Positions 25,087-33,858 of a stretch of 64,000 bases of DNA are shown piece after piece (the stretch's first letter is position 1; each line of letters starts with the position of its first letter). The notes under the pieces were generated by a model, which saw only the letters and a list, made by a program, of their open reading frames with translations, searched no databases and was not told the DNA's origin. Source of the DNA: Sordariomycetes sp. S80-01Y (lineage: Eukaryota; Ascomycota; Sordariomycetes). A program made the translations under genes and the position numbers. The stretch lies in NCBI GenBank assembly GCA_037042185.1, contig JAXQJY010000021.1:372001-436000 (forward strand), read 5' to 3'.

Positions 25087-26468
25087 ATGGCTTCAGGCGA
25101 TTTCTTATTTCTAAACACTACAGGGCCCCCAAAGTTCTCGCAGGCGACTGCCAATCGGGTCAGAGGACATGTCACTAAGGTCAACTTTGCCAACCGGAGG
25201 CGGCTCAGGGATCAAGCAGAGACGCAGAGGCTGAAGACGACGGCACCTAGGATGCAGAGCCGAACTCCGAGCTCCGCAACCGAATCTCAAATATCGTGTA
25301 GCAGCTTAGCAACGGCGCTGTCGGTCGCTACTCTGAGGAGCGATGGGAAGCATGCAGCCGAGCTACGTGGGTAATGCTGTGTCTGTCCGCATGTTCGAGA
25401 ACTGACGTAAACAGTCAATGCATTCTGGCCCATCGTATTTCTACACGACCGGAGCTTATCAGGCGGTGAAAATAACCAGCTGTGGCTCGAAGCACTTGCT
25501 TCAGAACCAGCCTTCGTCGAGGCTACCGTGGCTACAGCAATCCGATTCTGGCTGCCCGATAGCATCTGCAAAATGAGGTCCGACTTCCACTCATACCGAG
25601 CTACGAGCATGGTCAGAAAACGGTTGCTCTCGGACGAGATCTGCTCTGACGGATTCTTTGGAGCCGTGATAACCATGGCAATCTCCGAACGATTCCTGCG
25701 AAACGACGCTGCTTGGAAGATTCACATGGACGGATTGGTGCAGGTTATCACAGCGCGACAGGCTCGAGGGATAGAAAGCATCCCATCTTTGTTCACAGAC
25801 CTTACGATTCTGTAAGATACAAACAATGTCCTGCGTTATTATACTGATATTGGATTAGAGACACAGTCAATGACGCTATAGGCTTTCCTCGTGTTTACCG
25901 CCCAAATCTTATTCAAGCGCTTGGGAAACACGAGGGAGGCATCATTCTGGAAACAGCCACACTTGCACAGAACGTCAAAACACTGCGCCGAATGGTCAGC
26001 TCATGTCGAGCGCACGGCTGCAGCGATGCAGAGGCCGAAGCAATATCAGAGCTGTCTGATTCCATTCACCGGAGTGCCAAGCTGCTCGGATCAAATGCCA
26101 ACGCTTACGTCCGGAGCACTGTCCGGGCCAACCGACTACTTTCTAGCTTATGCTGGCCCTTACAGGTCGATGAAGAGGCGTGTGCCCTGCTAGCGGATGA
26201 ACTAAAGGAGGAGATGAGCAACTTGCCCGGAAGGTCTTGCCTTCTCATGGACTTGACATCGTGCGAGCTCATAGTCGGAACTGTTACATCAGCCCCGGGA
26301 TCAGACTCCCAAGCTTGGTTCGTGAGTAGGTTAAAACGGGCCGTGGAAGGGTTGCGCCGAAGGGGATGGGACAACCCTGCTGGACTCTTAGAAGCGGCGC
26401 TCAGCTACGACAAAGACCTTCGCGAGCAGTTCGCAAATTCATGGACAAAGATCTCGGGTCACCTTTAA
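25087..26468 (+). CDS. Fungal transcription-factor-like protein without a zinc cluster
   Basis: Three exons (25087-25366, 25415-25811, 25859-26468) give 428 aa in exact phase; the first donor is GTGGGT. The N-terminus has the motif DFLFLNTTGPPKF followed by RVRGHVTKVNFANRRRLRD, a basic stretch typical of a fungal group whose C-terminal part resembles fungal-specific transcription factor domain 2. Exon 2 starts with LNAFWPIVFLHDRSL after splicing and continues with helices such as GFFGAVITMAISERFL and WKIHMDGLVQVITARQ, which match that domain. No Zn2Cys6 cysteines are present. It is probably nuclear, and DNA binding by the basic region is unproven. It is the first gene of the amino-sugar group and could be its regulator, but that is inference. 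It is convergent with the transporter (185 bp apart). Confidence 0.7.
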
Positions 26469-26652: not shown

Positions 26653-28148
26653 TCATGCCTCCGTCTCCGTCTTCTCCGGGTTGACCGGAGGTGGAGTAAA
26701 GCCAGCTTCTTCCTCCGCAGTCGTGGTCTTCGAAACAGTCAGGACAGCCGGTAGCGCAACCACGAGCGAACCGATGCAGAGGCCCCAGTTCATTCCGAGC
26801 TGCGCTCTGCCACTCGTTCCCACCGCATTGACACGCCATGCCATGGCTCCGCCCGTCGCTTGAAAGGTCTTGTACGCACCGACGAGAACAGCCGCCCGAC
26901 CGGCACTGTTCGATTCGGAACCGATCAGCCAGTAGGAGAAGCCTTGCCACAGAGCATCGTACGCTCCGTAGAAGATGTACAGGATGATCGGTCCCGTGGA
27001 GATACTTCCCTGCTTGTAATCGATGTCTTGCTTGAGCCCGCGGCTCATGCGCTCTTCCTGCCATAGCTCGAACGCGTAGCCTCCGCCCCAGATAGCCATA
27101 CCGGTGACCAGCAAGAAGGCCCAACCTAGTCTGGCGCGGCCGGGGCGTTCAAACCATGGAAGATCCAGTAGGAAGCCCATCAACATCCCTCCAAGCATCT
27201 GCGCTATCCAGTACAACGCGCTGTTGAGTGACCGTGTGCGGATGTTGAAGGTTAGCCCGTTGACGTTGTTCTGCTGGTAGCTGTAGAAGACGTTGGCCGA
27301 AAAGAAGAGTGGTATCATGCAGGCGACGCGCCACCTGAAGAGCGTGCTGACCGCTATCCGGATAGATCCTTTGATGGACTGCTTCTCCGTTTCGACAGCC
27401 CGGTGCAACTGAGCCAGACGGATACGGGAAGGGGAGCAAAGGAAAACGCCTAGAAGCCAACCAAAGGCCATTATGGCGAGAAGCGCAATGTAAGTCGAGT
27501 CGGTCACCGTTCCGTCAGTTGAGTTGTAGTTGAGTCCAAACGACACGATGGCGCCGATGCCTCCGCCCAGGTTGAAAATGACCCAGAAAGTTGCAATGGC
27601 GCGCCCTTTCTGCGACTCCTCCACGTAGGTTGTCATGATAGCTCCCTGAACCACCCATATGAACGAAGCGCCAACACCAAGGATGGCACCGGAGGCAATC
27701 ACGAAAGCACCGTTGCTGTGGTGGTTGAAGTGCAGAAGGCTGCCGCTGTAAAGCGCATAGGTCCAGCCACCGATGAGGAAGCAAATCCTGGGCCCAACGC
27801 GCGAGAAAATAGGTCCGACCACGAAAAGTGCTGTACCAGCGGTGGCGGACAGGAGGGCGACATTGGCGTTTGCAGCGACGGTTGAGTCGATCTGTCCGGA
27901 ACCACCAAGACCCGTGAGGGCATTGTACATCTGCTCAAAGTCAATGGCTCGGACTATGGTCACAGTATCTGAGGGGCACTTACACCCGGAAGACAGAAGC
28001 AAATGAAACTTATGAGAATGATTTGAGACCACGGATGAGAGTAGAATCTAATAATCTTCGAGGAAGAGGGTTGCCACCCGCCGAGTTCGTCGCGAGAAAC
28101 ATCCCCCGGGGACGCTGGCGAGGCAGTTTCGTCAAGTGTTTTAGCCAT
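26653..28148 (-). CDS. UNC-93-like major facilitator transporter
   Basis: Two exons on the minus strand (28148-27984 and 27930-26653; 53-bp intron with GTAAGT) give 480 aa. It has about 11-12 transmembrane helices of the UNC-93-like branch of the major facilitator superfamily (formerly DUF895 in fungi). The first helix is SQIILISFICFCLPG, followed by MYNALTGLGGSGQID, the family hallmark formed across the intron. Other helices include YALYSGSLLHFN, AIATFWVIFNLGGGIGAIV and LYIFYGAYDALWQGFSYWL. The N-terminus (MAKTLDETASPASPGD) and the C-terminus (PPPVNPEKTETEA) are polar and cytosolic. The substrate is not evident. Divergent pairing with a sugar kinase and closeness to a NamZ-like hydrolase suggest uptake of an amino sugar such as MurNAc or GlcNAc. 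Confidence 0.85.
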
Positions 28149-28528
28149 CGTGACAAAGACGCAGTTGTATGCCGATGGAGCACAAGGAGTTCCAACGGCG
28201 CACGTTGGGGTCTTATAGGACATGCATCCGCAAGGTATCAATTGTTGCGAACGGGGGCGTACTCACGGCCGCCTCCACCCCTGTTCCGAGCCGAACCCCC
28301 GGAGATCTTATCAAAACGATGCTTCGGTTACCAATAAGAACGTTCTTGTTGGTAACATCCGATGTGGGCTTCGGATAACCCGACGGCATGAGTGCGGGGG
28401 AGCAGGGACTAAGTACGACCGATTCGGGAATAAGTCGTGCTGATGGCTGCAACAGGTCAGAGGGACATTACATAAGGCTAGATTGGCCCAATTCATCGAT
28501 GAGGTTCAATCTGGGTGACAGTTCCAAG
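28149..28528. promoter_or_regulatory. Divergent promoter of transporter and kinase
   Basis: A 380-bp region controlling both genes. A 30-bp near-perfect palindrome sits at 28327-28356, about 178 bp from the transporter ATG and 173 bp from the kinase ATG. The word GCTTCGG occurs twice around it (28321-28327 and about 28368-28374). Coordinated control is the natural reading. Confidence 0.55.
28327..28356. repeat. 30-bp near-perfect palindrome in a divergent promoter
   Basis: The left arm GTTACCAATAAGAAC pairs with the right arm GTTCTTGTTGGTAAC. Fourteen of fifteen pairs are Watson-Crick and one is T-G. The centre is AACGTT. An operator for a dimeric regulator is plausible. The inverted repeat itself is seen directly. 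Confidence 0.85.
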
Positions 28529-29692
28529 ATGGCACTCGACAGGGCACAAACGGCAACTGAGGACTCCCCGCTGTCTCGGCCAGATGTCTCAGGTCGCGAG
28601 TTGGTGCTTTGCGTCGACGCTGGTGGAAGTAGTTGCAAAGCAGCACTGTTGTCTGATGACGGGATACTGGCCTCGAGTGTTGGAGAACCCTGCAATGTGT
28701 AAGAATCTCTGGATTGTCATGGTCTGTCCTGGTTCACTGATCAAGATCTCAGCTCCACAACAGGGCTCGACGCTGCCCTCCTGACCCTCAAGACAGTGGT
28801 TTCTGATGTTCTTCAGAAACACCCAGTCACGAGGGGCCAGTCGATCTCCACGGTAGCTTTCAGCAAAGTTTGGGTGGGAATGGCAGGCTACAGTCGCCTG
28901 TCTTTGATGCCCCTAGTCAACGATGCGCTTTCCAAGATGTTCCGGATGTCGCTCAATGGGGGCTTGAGGATATCCTCCGACATTGATATCCTCCCTGCTA
29001 CGGTTGCGCCTAACACAGACATATCGTCGGTGATTGTGCTCGTTGTTGGTACGGGCTCAGTAGCCATGGCTTACGAACGGAGTGGTCACGACTTCGTTCG
29101 AACAGGCCGCGCCGGGGGCTGGGGAAGGCTTCTCGGCGACGATGGTTCAGGATATGCTATCGGCCGAGAGGCAATCCGGGCTACTTTGAGGCAATGCGAC
29201 ATGCACAACCTCAAGAAAGCGGCACGCGTTGGACCAGAACTTTTTGAACCTTTGCCACAAGCAGTTCTGGAGCATTTCCAGGGTCTCGACCCCGATTGTA
29301 CCCCTGAAAGTTTCCTCGACTGCGTACTGTTCCCTGGTTCGTCACGACAGTCAGGAGAAAGCAACGATACCGCCAGGACAAAGGCCGTTGCTAGCGCCGC
29401 ATCGATTGTTTTGTCTATGGCTCCAAGCAATATTGAAACGGAACGGATTCTCAAATCAGGAGCTTCTAGTGTAGCCGAGCTTGTGCATACGCTTGTCGAG
29501 GGGCAGAACATCGATTTAGCTCATTGCGCCCTGGTACTAGGTGGAGGCTTAATGGGGAGTCATATGTACCGAGAGACAGTCTGCGGTATCCTGCAAGAGA
29601 AATGCGGCGAATTCAGGCAAGTTAGACTGATGGATCAACCAGTCATTTCTGGGGCAGAATATCTGCTACAATGCGAGAAGAATCCAACGTAA
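28529..29692 (+). CDS. BadF/BcrA-type N-acetylhexosamine kinase (GlcNAc/MurNAc kinase-like)
   Basis: Two exons (28529-28698 and 28753-29692) give 369 aa. The intron must end at the second AG (CTCAG) to keep phase. The actin-like ATPase fold is clear: phosphate-1 loop LCVDAGGSSCKAALL (about 26-40), VLVVGTGSVAMAY, the family hallmark GGWGRLLGDDGSGYAIGREA, and the adenosine motif ALVLGGGLMGS near the C-terminus. These enzymes phosphorylate N-acetylglucosamine at C6; a bacterial member (MurK) also takes N-acetylmuramic acid. It differs from yeast-type hexokinase-fold GlcNAc kinases. It is probably cytosolic. The divergent transporter and the downstream NamZ-like enzyme make MurNAc or GlcNAc likely substrates. 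Confidence 0.87.
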
Positions 29693-30402
29693 CCATTCAT
29701 CTGAACATTGAGCACAAGATCAAAATGAACTTGTAGTTACAGGGCTGTTTGTCATCTACAGATAACATGTCACTCGAGAAACATGGTAACTGCTATATTC
29801 GTGACATGAAGAGTTTGGAGGGGTGTACCCGAATGACTTGGGGGAGAACCCCGGTAGCTTAGGCTCGGCCCAGAATAAGATCACCTTACTTTCAATAATC
29901 ATTTCGCTGTCCCTATAAAAGTATGGTCTTAATGGAACTCTCAACTGGGAGATGACCTAGGCACGAGTGTCGGATTCGCGGACGGATCTGGAGGTCAAAC
30001 GGAGAAGCCTATCTGAGGAATGCTGCAGCTAGCATGATATCTGCCCTTCATAGCCATCGTTTTCCCTTATCTACGGAAGCTTCCTTTCATAGACTCTCAA
30101 CGCCTCTGATTCGGATGTGACGGCCGTGCTCAATATCAGAATGCCCACCCCCTTGGAGAAGCCACGTGGGGCCACGCGAGATTGGGGAAGTTGGCTGTTC
30201 CGGATATCCCGATGATAGGCACTCCCCAGTCGGATCATCGGCTGGCGATGCGGGGTTCGATGTGTAGTTGTAAGTTACATTGGGCTCAATCCGGGGTCCC
30301 TGGCTACTAAGTTTGAGGAAGAATTACGCAGCGAGACATTCAAATAAGAGGGCACACCTCAAAATGCGTCTAAGATAGTACCGTGGCTTCCAAACAATAA
30401 AG
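29693..30402. other. Intergenic region before the NamZ-like gene
   Basis: About 710 bp with no supported gene. It includes the kinase 3' UTR and the promoter of the secreted hydrolase. ACAATAAAG just before the ATG at 30403 is AT-rich. No other signal recognised. Confidence 0.4.
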
Positions 30403-31758
30403 ATGTCTTTTTTACAGTCAATGAAGTCGTTTCTGGTTGTGGCGTTCCTGGCCTCAATTGCTGAATCCAGTAAATGCGTCAAGACTGGACTAGATGTTCT
30501 CATCGAGAGTGACTACAGCCAGCTCGCTGGCAGAAAGGTCATCGCCCTCAGCAATCCGACTGGTGTCACCCCGCAGCTAGATCTTGGAATAGATGTCATG
30601 GTTCAGTCAGGCAAGGTTGACATAGTAGGCATTATGGGGCCTGAGCATGGCTTCCGTGGGACGGCGCAGGCAGGAGACGCTGAAGGAACCTTTGTTGATG
30701 AGAAGACCGGGATCACAGTGTACGATGCTTACTTGGCGAACACGACGGAGCTTGTCAGTTTCATCAAGGATTCGGGGGCTGATACTGTGCTGTTTGACAT
30801 CCAGGATGTTGGTGCGCGCTTCTACACATGTGGGTGGCTAAACCGTGCCTCTTCTGTGGTGCTTCGCTGACAGAATATAGATGTGTGGGCTATGTATGAC
30901 ACGATGATTGCGGCTGCCGAAACGAACTCCTCATTCGTGGTATTAGATCGTCCAAACCCTATTTCAGGTCTCGACGCCTTCGGTCCCGTCCTGGATGAGT
31001 CTTTTATCACTTCCTACGTTGGCAGGCGTGCCATTGCGCAGTCTCACGGTATGACCACGGGTGAGCTCGCCCGCATGTTTGTTGGTGAGGGGTGGATCAA
31101 AGAAGCTTCCGGAGGAGCAGACCTATCTGTGGAGGTTGTGCAAATGCATAACTGGAAGCGTTGGATGACCTTCCATGATACAGGTCTGCCTTGGGTGATA
31201 CCCTCCCCGAACATGCCTACGGTGGACACGGCGATGCTGTATCCCGGTACCTGCATGTTTGAGGGTGTCAGTATCTCAGAAGGTCGAGGAACCACGAGGC
31301 CTTTTGAACTGCTCGGTGCGCCATGGACAAACGAGTCATGGGTGTCGGCCATGAGAGACTTGAACATTCCCAACACCAAATACCGCTTTCAGTGTTTCAC
31401 ACCTACAGCCGACGATTTCGAGGGGAATGTTTCGTGTGGTCTACAGACATATTTGGACATCCGCAACGCCGACATACTTCGCGACCTTGATACCCCTTAC
31501 ATTGGAGTGTCTCTTCTCTACACAGCCCGGAAGCTATATACAGTCGACAACACCACGAGTCAGCAACCAAACACCGGTGCATTCCACTGGCTACCCAGCT
31601 CGGCCAATGAATCAACATACAACATTGACGTCTTGACAGGGTCTTCGCTCATTCGGGAAGGCATCGAGAGCGGCTTGACACCAGATGAGCTCCGAGACCA
31701 GTGGACGCCGCGCCTGGCAGAGTTCAAGGAGAAGAGACACCAATATTTGATTTATTAA
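30403..31758 (+). CDS. Secreted DUF1343/NamZ-like exo-beta-N-acetylmuramidase (GH171-type)
   Basis: Two exons (30403-30829 and 30881-31758) give 434 aa. The intron uses GTGGGT, and splicing restores the family block DIQDVGARFYTYVW. A signal peptide is visible (MKSFLVVAFLASIAESSKC after a short lead), so the protein is secreted; an alternative start is ATG 30421. Conserved family features are LAGRKVIALSNPTGV, IMGPEHGFRG (the catalytic-site region), VLDRPNPISG, SHGMTTGELARMF, SPNMPTVDTAMLYPGTCMFEG and SEGRGTTRPFELLGAPW. Bacterial NamZ (YbbC) removes terminal MurNAc from the non-reducing end of peptidoglycan fragments and is classed as GH171. Fungal copies exist but are little studied. Neighbouring transporter and kinase genes suggest uptake and phosphorylation of the released sugar. 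Confidence 0.88.
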
Positions 31759-32661
31759 AGGGCCAATGGAGAACTTGAAGATCAGAATTCGTTTCATGCA
31801 TTACAAGGACAGACGTCAGAGTGAATATTAGACTTAATTCTGGCGGTGCATCGACCTACATGCTGGCGAGAAGTCGATCATTATCATAGTCTGGACTCAA
31901 AGTTAAGCAAGACCCTGCAAGACTTTTGTGGTATCAGAAATAGCTTTTTTTTGCACGCCTGATTCGAGCCTTGGACCACAGCCGTCGCCAAGTCTTCCCT
32001 TGCATCATCCATACAGTATCGGTTGGTCTCTGGCATACCAGCTGCATTTAGTACAATGACTGTTAACCCGATGTCAATATCTTCGAATCTCACGTGACCT
32101 TTTCAAACAGTGCAACCTGGATCTCTCTTTTGACTACTAAAGTGCTTTCGAGCTCCCATGGAAAAAAAAATATATCAGACCATCAGGCATTGTCTGTATG
32201 GAACAGGGAAGGATGGCACGGTGAGACATATAGGTCATACACGTGTGCCTTAACACATTTCGCTCAATGATGTTACCATTGAGTCTGTACATTCTCAACT
32301 TCAATTGTCGGCTAATTTCTGTTTGCGATAACTTACACGGTGACCCCTGTGGTGCGGGCGCGCCGAAAGCCGCGCGAGGTCCCGTCTTAAAGCCGTCAGC
32401 ATTTGGCAGTGCGACAATAAACATTGACATCGATGACGCGCTTGAAGACGCAGCTTGATGATGCGAACGACCGCTGAGAAGACTTGCTCACCTTGCAGCG
32501 CTTTTAAATCCCTGTGATAGGTCGGCAACACATTCTCGATACACCCGTCAAGACTTGCAGGGACAGCCGCGAGGTAGCACCGCCCTTGGGCCATCACGCG
32601 ACTTGTCCTCCACGACGCCAACGAGTCACGACAACGGCGCAGGCCGCCGTCAGCTCGCGAG
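31759..32661. other. Intergenic region between NamZ-like and TDT transporter genes
   Basis: About 900 bp, no gene found. Frames at 31884-32093, 32137-32430 and 32301-32786 (minus) have no domain; the last overlaps the transporter start antisense. It should carry the promoter of the downstream transporter. Confidence 0.4.
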
Positions 32662-33858
32662 ATGCCCAAAGACAAGCATGGAGCGAGCGAGAGTCCCGAG
32701 GATGGGTCCCAACCGCAAGCGAAAAGGAGGAAAGTCGGTCTCCGGGATCGACTGAAGCACTTTACTTGGGCCAACTTCACCTGCACACAGTCGACAGGTG
32801 CCGTCGCAACTCTGCTCTCAGAGACACCTCATCAGTTCCATGGTCTGCAGACGATTGGCAAGGTTGTCTTCATCATCCAGCTGCTCCTCGTCATGGTCTT
32901 CTGCACAGCAATGGTTGGGAGGTTCATCCTACACCCCGCCGCGTTCAAGAGATCATTCGTCAACCCTCCGGAGCTTTACTTCTTTGGGTCGTTCTGGCTC
33001 ACGTTGGCCACGGACATCCTCTGCATCCAAAAGTTTGGTGTACCAAGCGCGGGTGAATGGCTTCTCGTGGTGGTGCGTGTCTTGTTTTGGATGTACGCAG
33101 CAGTGACTTTGGTGTACACGTCGACTATCTTTGTCGTCCTGTTCGGCAGGAGAACAGTCACGCCAAACAAGATGCACCCAGCGGTTTTTCTTATGGTTTA
33201 CAATGCCATGCTTACAGGAACTGTCGCCTCCACGATTGCTGAGACCCAGCCGCCTGTGCAGAGAATGCCCATCATCGTTGCTGGTGTGGCATACCAAGGA
33301 CTGGGCTGGATTCTATGCCTTCTCCTACTCCCGCTTTTCCTAGGGAGCCTTTTTTCTAGTGGCTTGAGCAATCCAAATATGCGTCCCGGCCTCTTCATGT
33401 CAGTTGGATCGGTTGCGTATACGATCGTCGCTCTGATAGGCTGCGCGAGGGCTCTACCCGTGGGTTATGACTACTTTGCGAGTCATCCCAATGCAGTCGA
33501 GATACTTCAAGTTTGCGCCTTGTGGGTTGGCATTTTCCTGTGGCTTTTCAACTTTTGGTTATTCGCCATCGCTCTCATCGCCAATCTGCAAACCATGATT
33601 CCCCGGAAGGAAAAGGGTCAGAAGATGCAGCCGCGGATGCACTTCACCCTTTCGTGGTATGCCCTCATCTTCCCCAACGTGGGATTTGCGCTGGCGACGA
33701 CTTACATCGGCGAAGAGTTGGGGTCCGAGGCCATAAAGTGGATTGCATCAGCGATGACTGTTATAATCTTTGCCCTTTGGCTATTCGACCTCGGTTTGCA
33801 CCTCAAGTCACTGATCAAGCGGCAGATCATGTGGCCAGGCAAGGATGAGGATGCCTGA
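32662..33858 (+). CDS. TDT/SLAC1-family transporter (Mae1/Ssu1-like)
   Basis: Single exon, 398 aa, ten predicted transmembrane segments. This is the voltage-dependent anion channel/C4-dicarboxylate transporter fold (TehA, Mae1, Ssu1, SLAC1). The N-terminus is polar with KRRKVGLRDRLKHFTWANF leading into the first helix, where fungal members have the FTWAxF...STGAVATLL pattern. Other typical pieces are NPPELYFFGSFWLTLATDI, the central WILCLLLLPLFLGSLF and LSWYALIFPNVGFALATTYI. Fungal relatives export sulfite or import malate. The sequence does not say which. The plasma membrane is expected. It is not obviously tied to the adjacent amino-sugar genes, though it is same-strand with the NamZ-like gene. 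Confidence 0.87.
   Translation: MPKDKHGASESPEDGSQPQAKRRKVGLRDRLKHFTWANFTCTQSTGAVATLLSETPHQFHGLQTIGKVVFIIQLLLVMVFCTAMVGRFILHPAAFKRSFVNPPELYFFGSFWLTLATDILCIQKFGVPSAGEWLLVVVRVLFWMYAAVTLVYTSTIFVVLFGRRTVTPNKMHPAVFLMVYNAMLTGTVASTIAETQPPVQRMPIIVAGVAYQGLGWILCLLLLPLFLGSLFSSGLSNPNMRPGLFMSVGSVAYTIVALIGCARALPVGYDYFASHPNAVEILQVCALWVGIFLWLFNFWLFAIALIANLQTMIPRKEKGQKMQPRMHFTLSWYALIFPNVGFALATTYIGEELGSEAIKWIASAMTVIIFALWLFDLGLHLKSLIKRQIMWPGKDEDA

Follow-up and report, generated by a model that had tools for sequence, protein, structure and literature searches.

A candidate two-locus gene set for N-acetylmuramic acid salvage in the fungus Sordariomycetes sp. S80-01Y

Two unlinked loci of the ascomycete Sordariomycetes sp. 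S80-01Y probably encode a fungal pathway for the salvage of N-acetylmuramic acid (MurNAc), organized as a proposed regulon. The outer half of this pathway would lie in a 64,000-nucleotide stretch of contig C4 (JAXQJY010000021.1; C4:372001-436000, hereafter the window) of a 30.87-Mb genome in 16 contigs, where genes for a NamZ-like exo-beta-N-acetylmuramidase, a BadF-family sugar kinase, and an UNC-93-like transporter stand together. The remaining steps would be encoded by a cluster on contig C12 that holds genes for the MurNAc-6-phosphate etherase MurQ, an AnmK-type kinase, NagA, NagB, a serine hydrolase of family PF00144, a transporter of the major facilitator superfamily (MFS), and a zinc-cluster factor. 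A more specific form of this proposal strikes us as just on the likely side of even, namely a dedicated bacterial-wall-feeding regulon in which bacterial-type namZ, murQ, serine hydrolase, and MurNAc kinase genes are combined with duplicates of the fungus's own nagA/nagB and a recruited levoglucosan-kinase paralogue at two unlinked loci, which a CGG-N5-CCG element of zinc-cluster type would link, and leading from peptidoglycan to glycolysis.

The proposed route begins outside the cell, where a presumably secreted NamZ, judging from the function of its family, would clip terminal MurNAc off peptidoglycan pieces. Import may proceed through the UNC-93/MFS protein of C4 or the MFS transporter of C12, a guess made from gene position. 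The BadF kinase, to judge from its kinship and the gene neighbourhoods of its bacterial relatives, would then convert MurNAc to MurNAc-6-phosphate. MurQ enzymes split MurNAc-6-phosphate into N-acetylglucosamine-6-phosphate (GlcNAc-6-phosphate) and D-lactate, and the C12 MurQ would do the same here; a second NagA and NagB, encoded on C12 and assigned their activities from the genes, would carry GlcNAc-6-phosphate to fructose-6-phosphate. The CGG-N5-CCG element, with the C12 zinc-cluster protein as its putative reader, perhaps ties both loci into one regulon, as far as regulation can be predicted from sequence.

The first-pass annotation of the window had described the NamZ-like, BadF-family kinase, and UNC-93-like transporter genes, and all three were recovered at those positions with Pfam scores above the family cut-offs (Table 1). 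For the NamZ gene, NamZ_N matched with 85.8 and 122.9 bits on two pieces (cut-off 26.9) and NamZ_C with 137.2 bits (cut-off 25), in open reading frames (ORFs) over 30379-31758. Splicing out a 51-nt GT-AG intron restores the motif FYTYVWAMYD, and the protein matches the solved structures 4k05 (E 1.3e-56, residues 26-434) and 4jja (E 4.8e-49). Its motifs PEHG, DRPNP, and SEGRGTT coincide with invariant columns of a four-sequence alignment and have a putative catalytic role, and its N-terminus is hydrophobic, as judged by eye. A search of the genome found one NamZ gene, matched as two exons; no NCBIfam family matched the fungal protein, and a contig scan with this protein alone returned 16 stretches with no relative among them. 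The kinase gene has a 54-nt intron (28699-28752), and the introns speak against bacterial contamination, which was rejected for this reason. The gene content of the window is fungal.

The kinase matched BcrAD_BadFG (PF01869) with 36.3 bits against a cut-off of 31.5, and with 42.2 bits in a genome search that spanned the intron; its start codon is uncertain (28529, 28499, or 28388). Genome-wide, the BadF model gave three matches, only the C4 kinase exceeding the cut-off. The two sub-threshold matches are very long ORFs on C6 (L013 4046-7096) and C7 (L014 607-3708), of 1017 and 1034 aa, with a hydantoinase/oxoprolinase-type look by eye. Among solved structures, phmmer ranked 8zo3, named as a MurNAc/GlcNAc kinase, best (E 3.4e-13), with an archaeal hexokinase at 2.2e-8 and human NAGK at 1.1e-5. 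Excerpts of PMC10465942 describe the MurNAc-permissive pocket of MurK as having small residues where other sugar kinases have Glu or His, and no Asn preceding the catalytic Asp. In the fungal kinase, Ser precedes Asp133 and the loop reads A-G-G by eye, a predicted pocket that is compatible with MurNAc and not decisive; because 8zo3 itself has Asn before its Asp, the pocket rule is not absolute. Human NAGK phosphorylates muramyl peptides, according to excerpts of PMC9477735 and PMC10465942.

The first-pass annotation had found no MurQ-like gene in the window, had reasoned that this step would lie elsewhere or that the true substrate was N-acetylglucosamine (GlcNAc), and had proposed a search for such a protein. 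Run as a model search of this genome, that search located MurQ at C12:1066225-1067264, matched in three pieces, and the idea that the gene is absent was rejected. The protein scores 353 bits with TIGR00274 (curated NCBIfam cut-off 302), and its residues 13-315 align with the bacterial etherases 4lzj and 1nri at E ~1e-81 and with glucokinase regulatory protein at 4e-22, which argues that it is an etherase rather than a glucokinase regulatory protein. The weakest match of the MurQ model (C12:1437488, 24.1 bits) was set aside as a probable glucosamine-fructose-6-phosphate aminotransferase, which is a guess. In the same cluster, NagB reaches 399 bits against an NCBIfam cut-off of 236.9 and NagA 247.9 against 225.65, and the spliced models comprise six exons for MurQ, four for the AnmK-type kinase, three for NagA, and four for NagB. 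The PF00144 hydrolase (beta-lactamase fold) is unspliced and has a hydrophobic N-terminus; it and the MFS transporter are supported by Pfam, and the factor combines a zinc cluster with a Fungal_trans domain (Pfam). These three genes were read as open frames.

C16 carries a further nagA/nagB pair together with GH3, NDT80 factor, and hexokinase genes. Piecewise tblastn comparison of the C12 and C16 copies gave identities of 60-64% for NagA and 59-79% for NagB, whose C-terminal piece reached 38%. The C12 NagA shares only 30-33% identity with bacterial plasmid copies, and the C12 nagA/nagB genes look like host-gene duplicates. Hexokinase and Ndt80 genes were not seen in the C4 or C12 stretches read, and no genome search was aimed at hexokinase or NDT80. 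Since the separate C16 GlcNAc cluster has its own hexokinase, the BadF kinase is probably unneeded for GlcNAc, and GlcNAc becomes less likely as the true substrate. The earlier suggestion that MurNAc is released outside the cell and then phosphorylated is strengthened by MurQ on C12 and by 8zo3 as the best phmmer structure for the kinase. As for the trio in the window as a salvage cluster, the genes are real, but their locus resembles half of a two-locus system rather than a complete cluster.

The position of the C12 AnmK-type gene in the murQ-nagA interval suggests an anhydro-MurNAc substrate. Compared with solved structures, however, the protein scores 344 bits against levoglucosan kinase versus 144 bits against bacterial AnmK, and although the NCBIfam AnmK models match it best, 0 of 14 reach their cut-off. 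An unreserved AnmK label was rejected because the solved structures group this kinase with levoglucosan kinase. The genome has three genes of the AnmK family, that of C12 and two more (Table 1), and for each of them levoglucosan kinase is a better match than AnmK. From such comparisons, fungal genes annotated as anhydro-N-acetylmuramic acid kinase (A. nidulans AN3499, Ophiostoma) may themselves be levoglucosan kinases.

Six promoter regions as drawn (4,560 bp in all), two on C4 (1,090 bp) and four on C12, were scanned for 105 dyads. CGG-N5-CCG occurs at 10 sites and in all six regions, against 1.61 expected (1.43 to 2.25 by background). The signal is mainly that of C12, with 8 sites against 1.09 to 1.71 expected. 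The right flank is A in 9 of the 10 sites and the left side, read as complement, in 2 of 10. Five 11-mers recur in two or more of the four C12 promoters; among them, CGGGATATCCG is also present in the namZ promoter. Genome-wide this word occurs 11 times, with 9 occurrences outside C12, and three of the 11 are those of two C12 promoters and the namZ promoter, whereas the reversed word, used as a control, occurs 3 times in all. By our own arithmetic, the chance of a copy in the C4 promoters is ~3e-4, or ~1.6e-3 for five candidate 11-mers. Other words are likewise common to C4 and C12 promoters, for example a 12-mer of the namZ and MFS/MurQ regions, and a stricter word, CGGGATATCCGAY, has 3 genome copies, two on C12, one on C11, and none on C4. 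By eye, none of the ORFs around all 8 other copies of CGGGATATCCG is plainly a wall-salvage gene. One of these copies lies inside a chitinase-like ORF (C16:16437).

Bacterial gene neighbourhoods were examined around relatives of both C4 enzymes. In a plasmid collection, 13 records matched the kinase and 10 of these, from 7 genera, were fetched and probed with the fungal proteins. MurQ was near the kinase relative in 6 of the 10, AnmK in 4, MurQ or AnmK in 8, and NagA in 8; NamZ was near none of the 10. Of 29 plasmid records matching NamZ, 10 were fetched (3 unannotated, 7 with 2-kb flanks only), and one of them, from Paenibacillus, has namZ followed directly by a BadF kinase gene, with an AnmK gene upstream. 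Bacterial namZ loci were represented by the best 80 of 581 relatives, whose NamZ proteins are 40-49% identical to the fungal one and belong to Actinomycetota in 77 cases. A homologue of the C12 hydrolase is present in 25 of these 80 loci at E <=1e-5 and in 23 at E <=1e-15; in 21 of these 23 it follows namZ directly, in the same orientation and at a distance of no more than 400 nt. MurQ is near namZ in 16 loci, none of which is from Streptomyces, and among the 30 non-Streptomyces loci of at least 13 kb, the hydrolase is found in 22, MurQ in 16, and GH3 in 23. Probes for AnmK, NagA, and NagB found nothing in the 80 loci. In a tree built by a quick method from 60 rows, with 30 of 44 Streptomyces left out, the fungal NamZ has a long branch and is nested in Actinomycetota (forks 99 and 97); because the rows were drawn from the best 80 of 581 relatives, the tree is a hint of origin only.

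Several observations weigh against a two-locus MurNAc pathway, and we consider them together with the alternatives that some of them favor. The kinase and transporter might serve GlcNAc or another sugar, with NamZ an unrelated secreted neighbour and the grouping due to chance, which we regard as unlikely. Some members of the BadF family phosphorylate GlcNAc, human NAGK (a weaker match) among them, and a six-sequence kinase profile places 1zc6, a probable GlcNAc kinase, at the top and both it and an archaeal hexokinase above 8zo3, so that the sugar is not readable from the structure matches. The match of the kinase to a curated equivalog is also weak (NagK_SO3507, 43.8 bits against a cut-off of 370). 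Its Alteromonas relative lies beside the GlcNAc-type genes nagA, nagB, and nagP, with neither MurQ nor AnmK, the Microvirga locus has none of the probed genes, and the ten plasmid loci cover 7 genera only. Moreover, a BadF kinase seldom adjoins namZ in the 80 bacterial loci (3 with the Thermomicrobium roseum kinase as probe, 0 with the fungal kinase), and in the fungus itself the kinase gene is not adjacent to murQ, the common promoter word being their sole link. Use of GlcNAc is at odds, on the other hand, with the C16 cluster and its hexokinase, with murQ or anmK near 8 of the 10 fetched kinase relatives, and with the 11-mer common to the namZ promoter and the murQ cluster. It is also conceivable that C12 alone is a MurNAc or anhydrosugar cluster and that the C4 genes carry the promoter 11-mer by chance, although this appears distinctly unlikely to us. 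The loci lie on separate contigs, CGG-N5-CCG shows no significant excess when C4 is taken by itself (2 sites, where 0.34 to 0.54 would be expected; p between 0.05 and 0.1), and the promoter test was post hoc, CGGGATATCCG having been noticed before the test was framed. In addition, 9 of the 105 dyads passed the print filter, CGG-N4-TCC is as strong (12 sites in all six regions against 2.37 expected) and partly overlaps CGG-N5-CCG, and when the window is scored with a matrix built from C12 sites, those of C4 come only 4th and 17th. Within C12, the zinc cluster is matched over positions 7-32 of 39 only, and the factor and MFS gene models are without first exons, so some of the 'promoter' sites could be exonic; an anhydro-MurNAc branch is doubtful because the 'AnmK' of C12 is closest to levoglucosan kinase. 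What speaks against a self-contained C12 is the rarity of the 11-mer, with the chance values given above, and the fact that C4 and not C12 carries the sole BadF-type kinase to exceed the cut-off of its family.

A role in competition or detoxification, in which NamZ and the C12 hydrolase would trim muropeptides outside the cell, thereby weakening bacteria or removing signals, and the catabolic genes would clear by-products, has in our view a slim chance of being correct. NamZ-type enzymes remove single sugars from chain ends and are expected to be poor killers, and C12 covers the route between MurNAc-6-phosphate and fructose-6-phosphate, its nagA/nagB pair being a second one in the genome; both are points against such a role. 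In its favor, excerpts of PMC12612818 report that Trichomonas acquired wall-cutting enzymes possibly aimed at bacteria, and excerpts of PMC13320244 report that camponotine ants carry a murQ gene, which is read there as a possible defence; the Trichomonas paper, however, also presents wall GlcNAc as an energy source. A MurNAc-salvage pathway across C4 and C12 therefore remains our preferred reading.

Table 1. Positions of the genes and promoter elements under discussion. Unprefixed coordinates are those of the window.
Feature	Location	Strand	Remarks
NamZ-like exo-beta-N-acetylmuramidase, GH171 type	30403..31758	+	434 aa; exons 30403-30829, 30881-31758; Pfam, splice model, PDB matches
BadF-family sugar kinase, MurK/NAGK-like	28529..29692	+	~369 aa; exons 28529-28698, 28753-29692; PF01869; phmmer 8zo3
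UNC-93/MFS transporter	26653..28148	-	480 aa; exons 28148-27984, 27930-26653; PF07690 (MFS_1) and PF05978 (UNC-93) above cut-offs; splice model
CGG-N5-CCG dyad CGGATAACCCG	28372..28382		common promoter of transporter and kinase
CGGATATCCCG (reverse complement CGGGATATCCG)	30201..30211		namZ promoter
Fungal_trans_2-like neighbour gene	25087..26468	+	17.8 bits, below cut-off 21; system membership doubtful
AnmK-family gene, C12	L011 3543-4964		between murQ and nagA; levoglucosan kinase 344 bits
AnmK-family gene, C13	L018 3972-5147		levoglucosan-kinase-like, 433 bits
AnmK-family gene, C15	C15:1214180-1215667 (L017 4181-5668)		levoglucosan kinase 728 bits; probable true levoglucosan kinase
Thermomicrobium roseum plasmid cluster	L039 7085-14703		murQ, BadF kinase, hexosaminidase, AnmK, serine hydrolase, nagA

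The transporter gene is divergent from the kinase gene, and the two have a promoter in common. The regulator label that the first-pass annotation gave to the gene on the other side of the transporter has weakened, since its Fungal_trans_2 match stays below the cut-off and on one piece; no Pfam match was found on its last piece or its first ORF, and because of the sub-threshold score and the unmatched first ORF we do not count the gene as a regulator. A gene for a SLAC1-type anion channel (Pfam 274.6 bits) lies downstream of namZ at 32578-33858 of the window. Elsewhere in the genome, a GH3 gene on C6 (C6:779148-780278; L015 4149-5279) has a hydrophobic N-terminus, scores 120 bits with an NCBIfam beta-N-acetylhexosaminidase model (cut-off 207), and has GH3 matches in the neighbourhood of namZ at 25 of the 80 bacterial loci; it could supply a glucosaminidase step. 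A GH25 lysozyme-family gene on C11 (C11:2622401-2622939; L037 1186-1830), found as two exon pieces, is a possible source of peptidoglycan fragments.

The use of MurNAc by bacteria is established. In Tannerella forsythia, a murT-murK-murQ operon occurs with NamZ1 and NamZ2 (excerpts of PMC10465942), and the proposed fungal route resembles this system in that exo-muramidases act outside the cell and that import, phosphorylation of MurNAc, and cleavage by the etherase MurQ lead to GlcNAc-6-phosphate. Unlike the bacterial operon as described in those excerpts, which unites transporter, kinase, and etherase, the fungal genes are spliced and lie at two unlinked loci, with transporters of different families, an additional nagA/nagB pair, a fungal factor of the zinc-cluster type, and a promoter element. 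The T. roseum plasmid cluster (Table 1) unites the C12 families MurQ, AnmK type, PF00144, and NagA with the kinase family of C4, and is in its compactness a good model of the fungal set; in contrast to the fungus, it is a single bacterial locus, and a NamZ match is absent from the 16.8-kb stretch. Actinomycete loci with GH3, namZ, PF00144, and murQ encode PF00144 proteins at most 44% and MurQ proteins at most 48% identical to those of the fungus; unlike the fungal set, AnmK was not found in them and a BadF kinase was found in 3 of the best 80 of 581.

Among fungi, the GlcNAc catabolic cluster of Trichoderma reesei uses a hexokinase and the Ndt80-type regulator RON1 (excerpts of PMC4950302). 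It has the NagA and NagB steps in common with the proposed pathway, and the set comparable to it is that of C16; neither 'muramic' nor 'peptidoglycan' appears anywhere in the text of that paper. Other eukaryotes offer partial parallels. The rumen ciliate Entodinium caudatum has transcripts for MurNAc-use enzymes (excerpts of PMC6925433), whereas a gene cluster, NamZ, and a regulon are unmentioned in those excerpts. Trichomonas similarly has laterally acquired bacterial-type muramidases and NagZ-like enzymes, and the released GlcNAc is usable; unlike in the proposed fungal pathway, the sugar used is GlcNAc and not MurNAc, and the word 'etherase' is absent from the text (PMC12612818). In line with the first-pass annotation, which knew of no such fungal pathway, a described fungal MurNAc pathway was not found in the open-licence PMC literature, among the matches listed, subscription journals being mostly outside this scope.

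If the proposal is correct, some fungi can use a sugar made by bacteria only, and dead bacteria in soil and on hosts could serve them as food. The fungus would then have assembled the pathway from bacterial-type genes and duplicated native ones, placed under a native regulator. Every step between peptidoglycan and glycolysis would then be present in a eukaryote.

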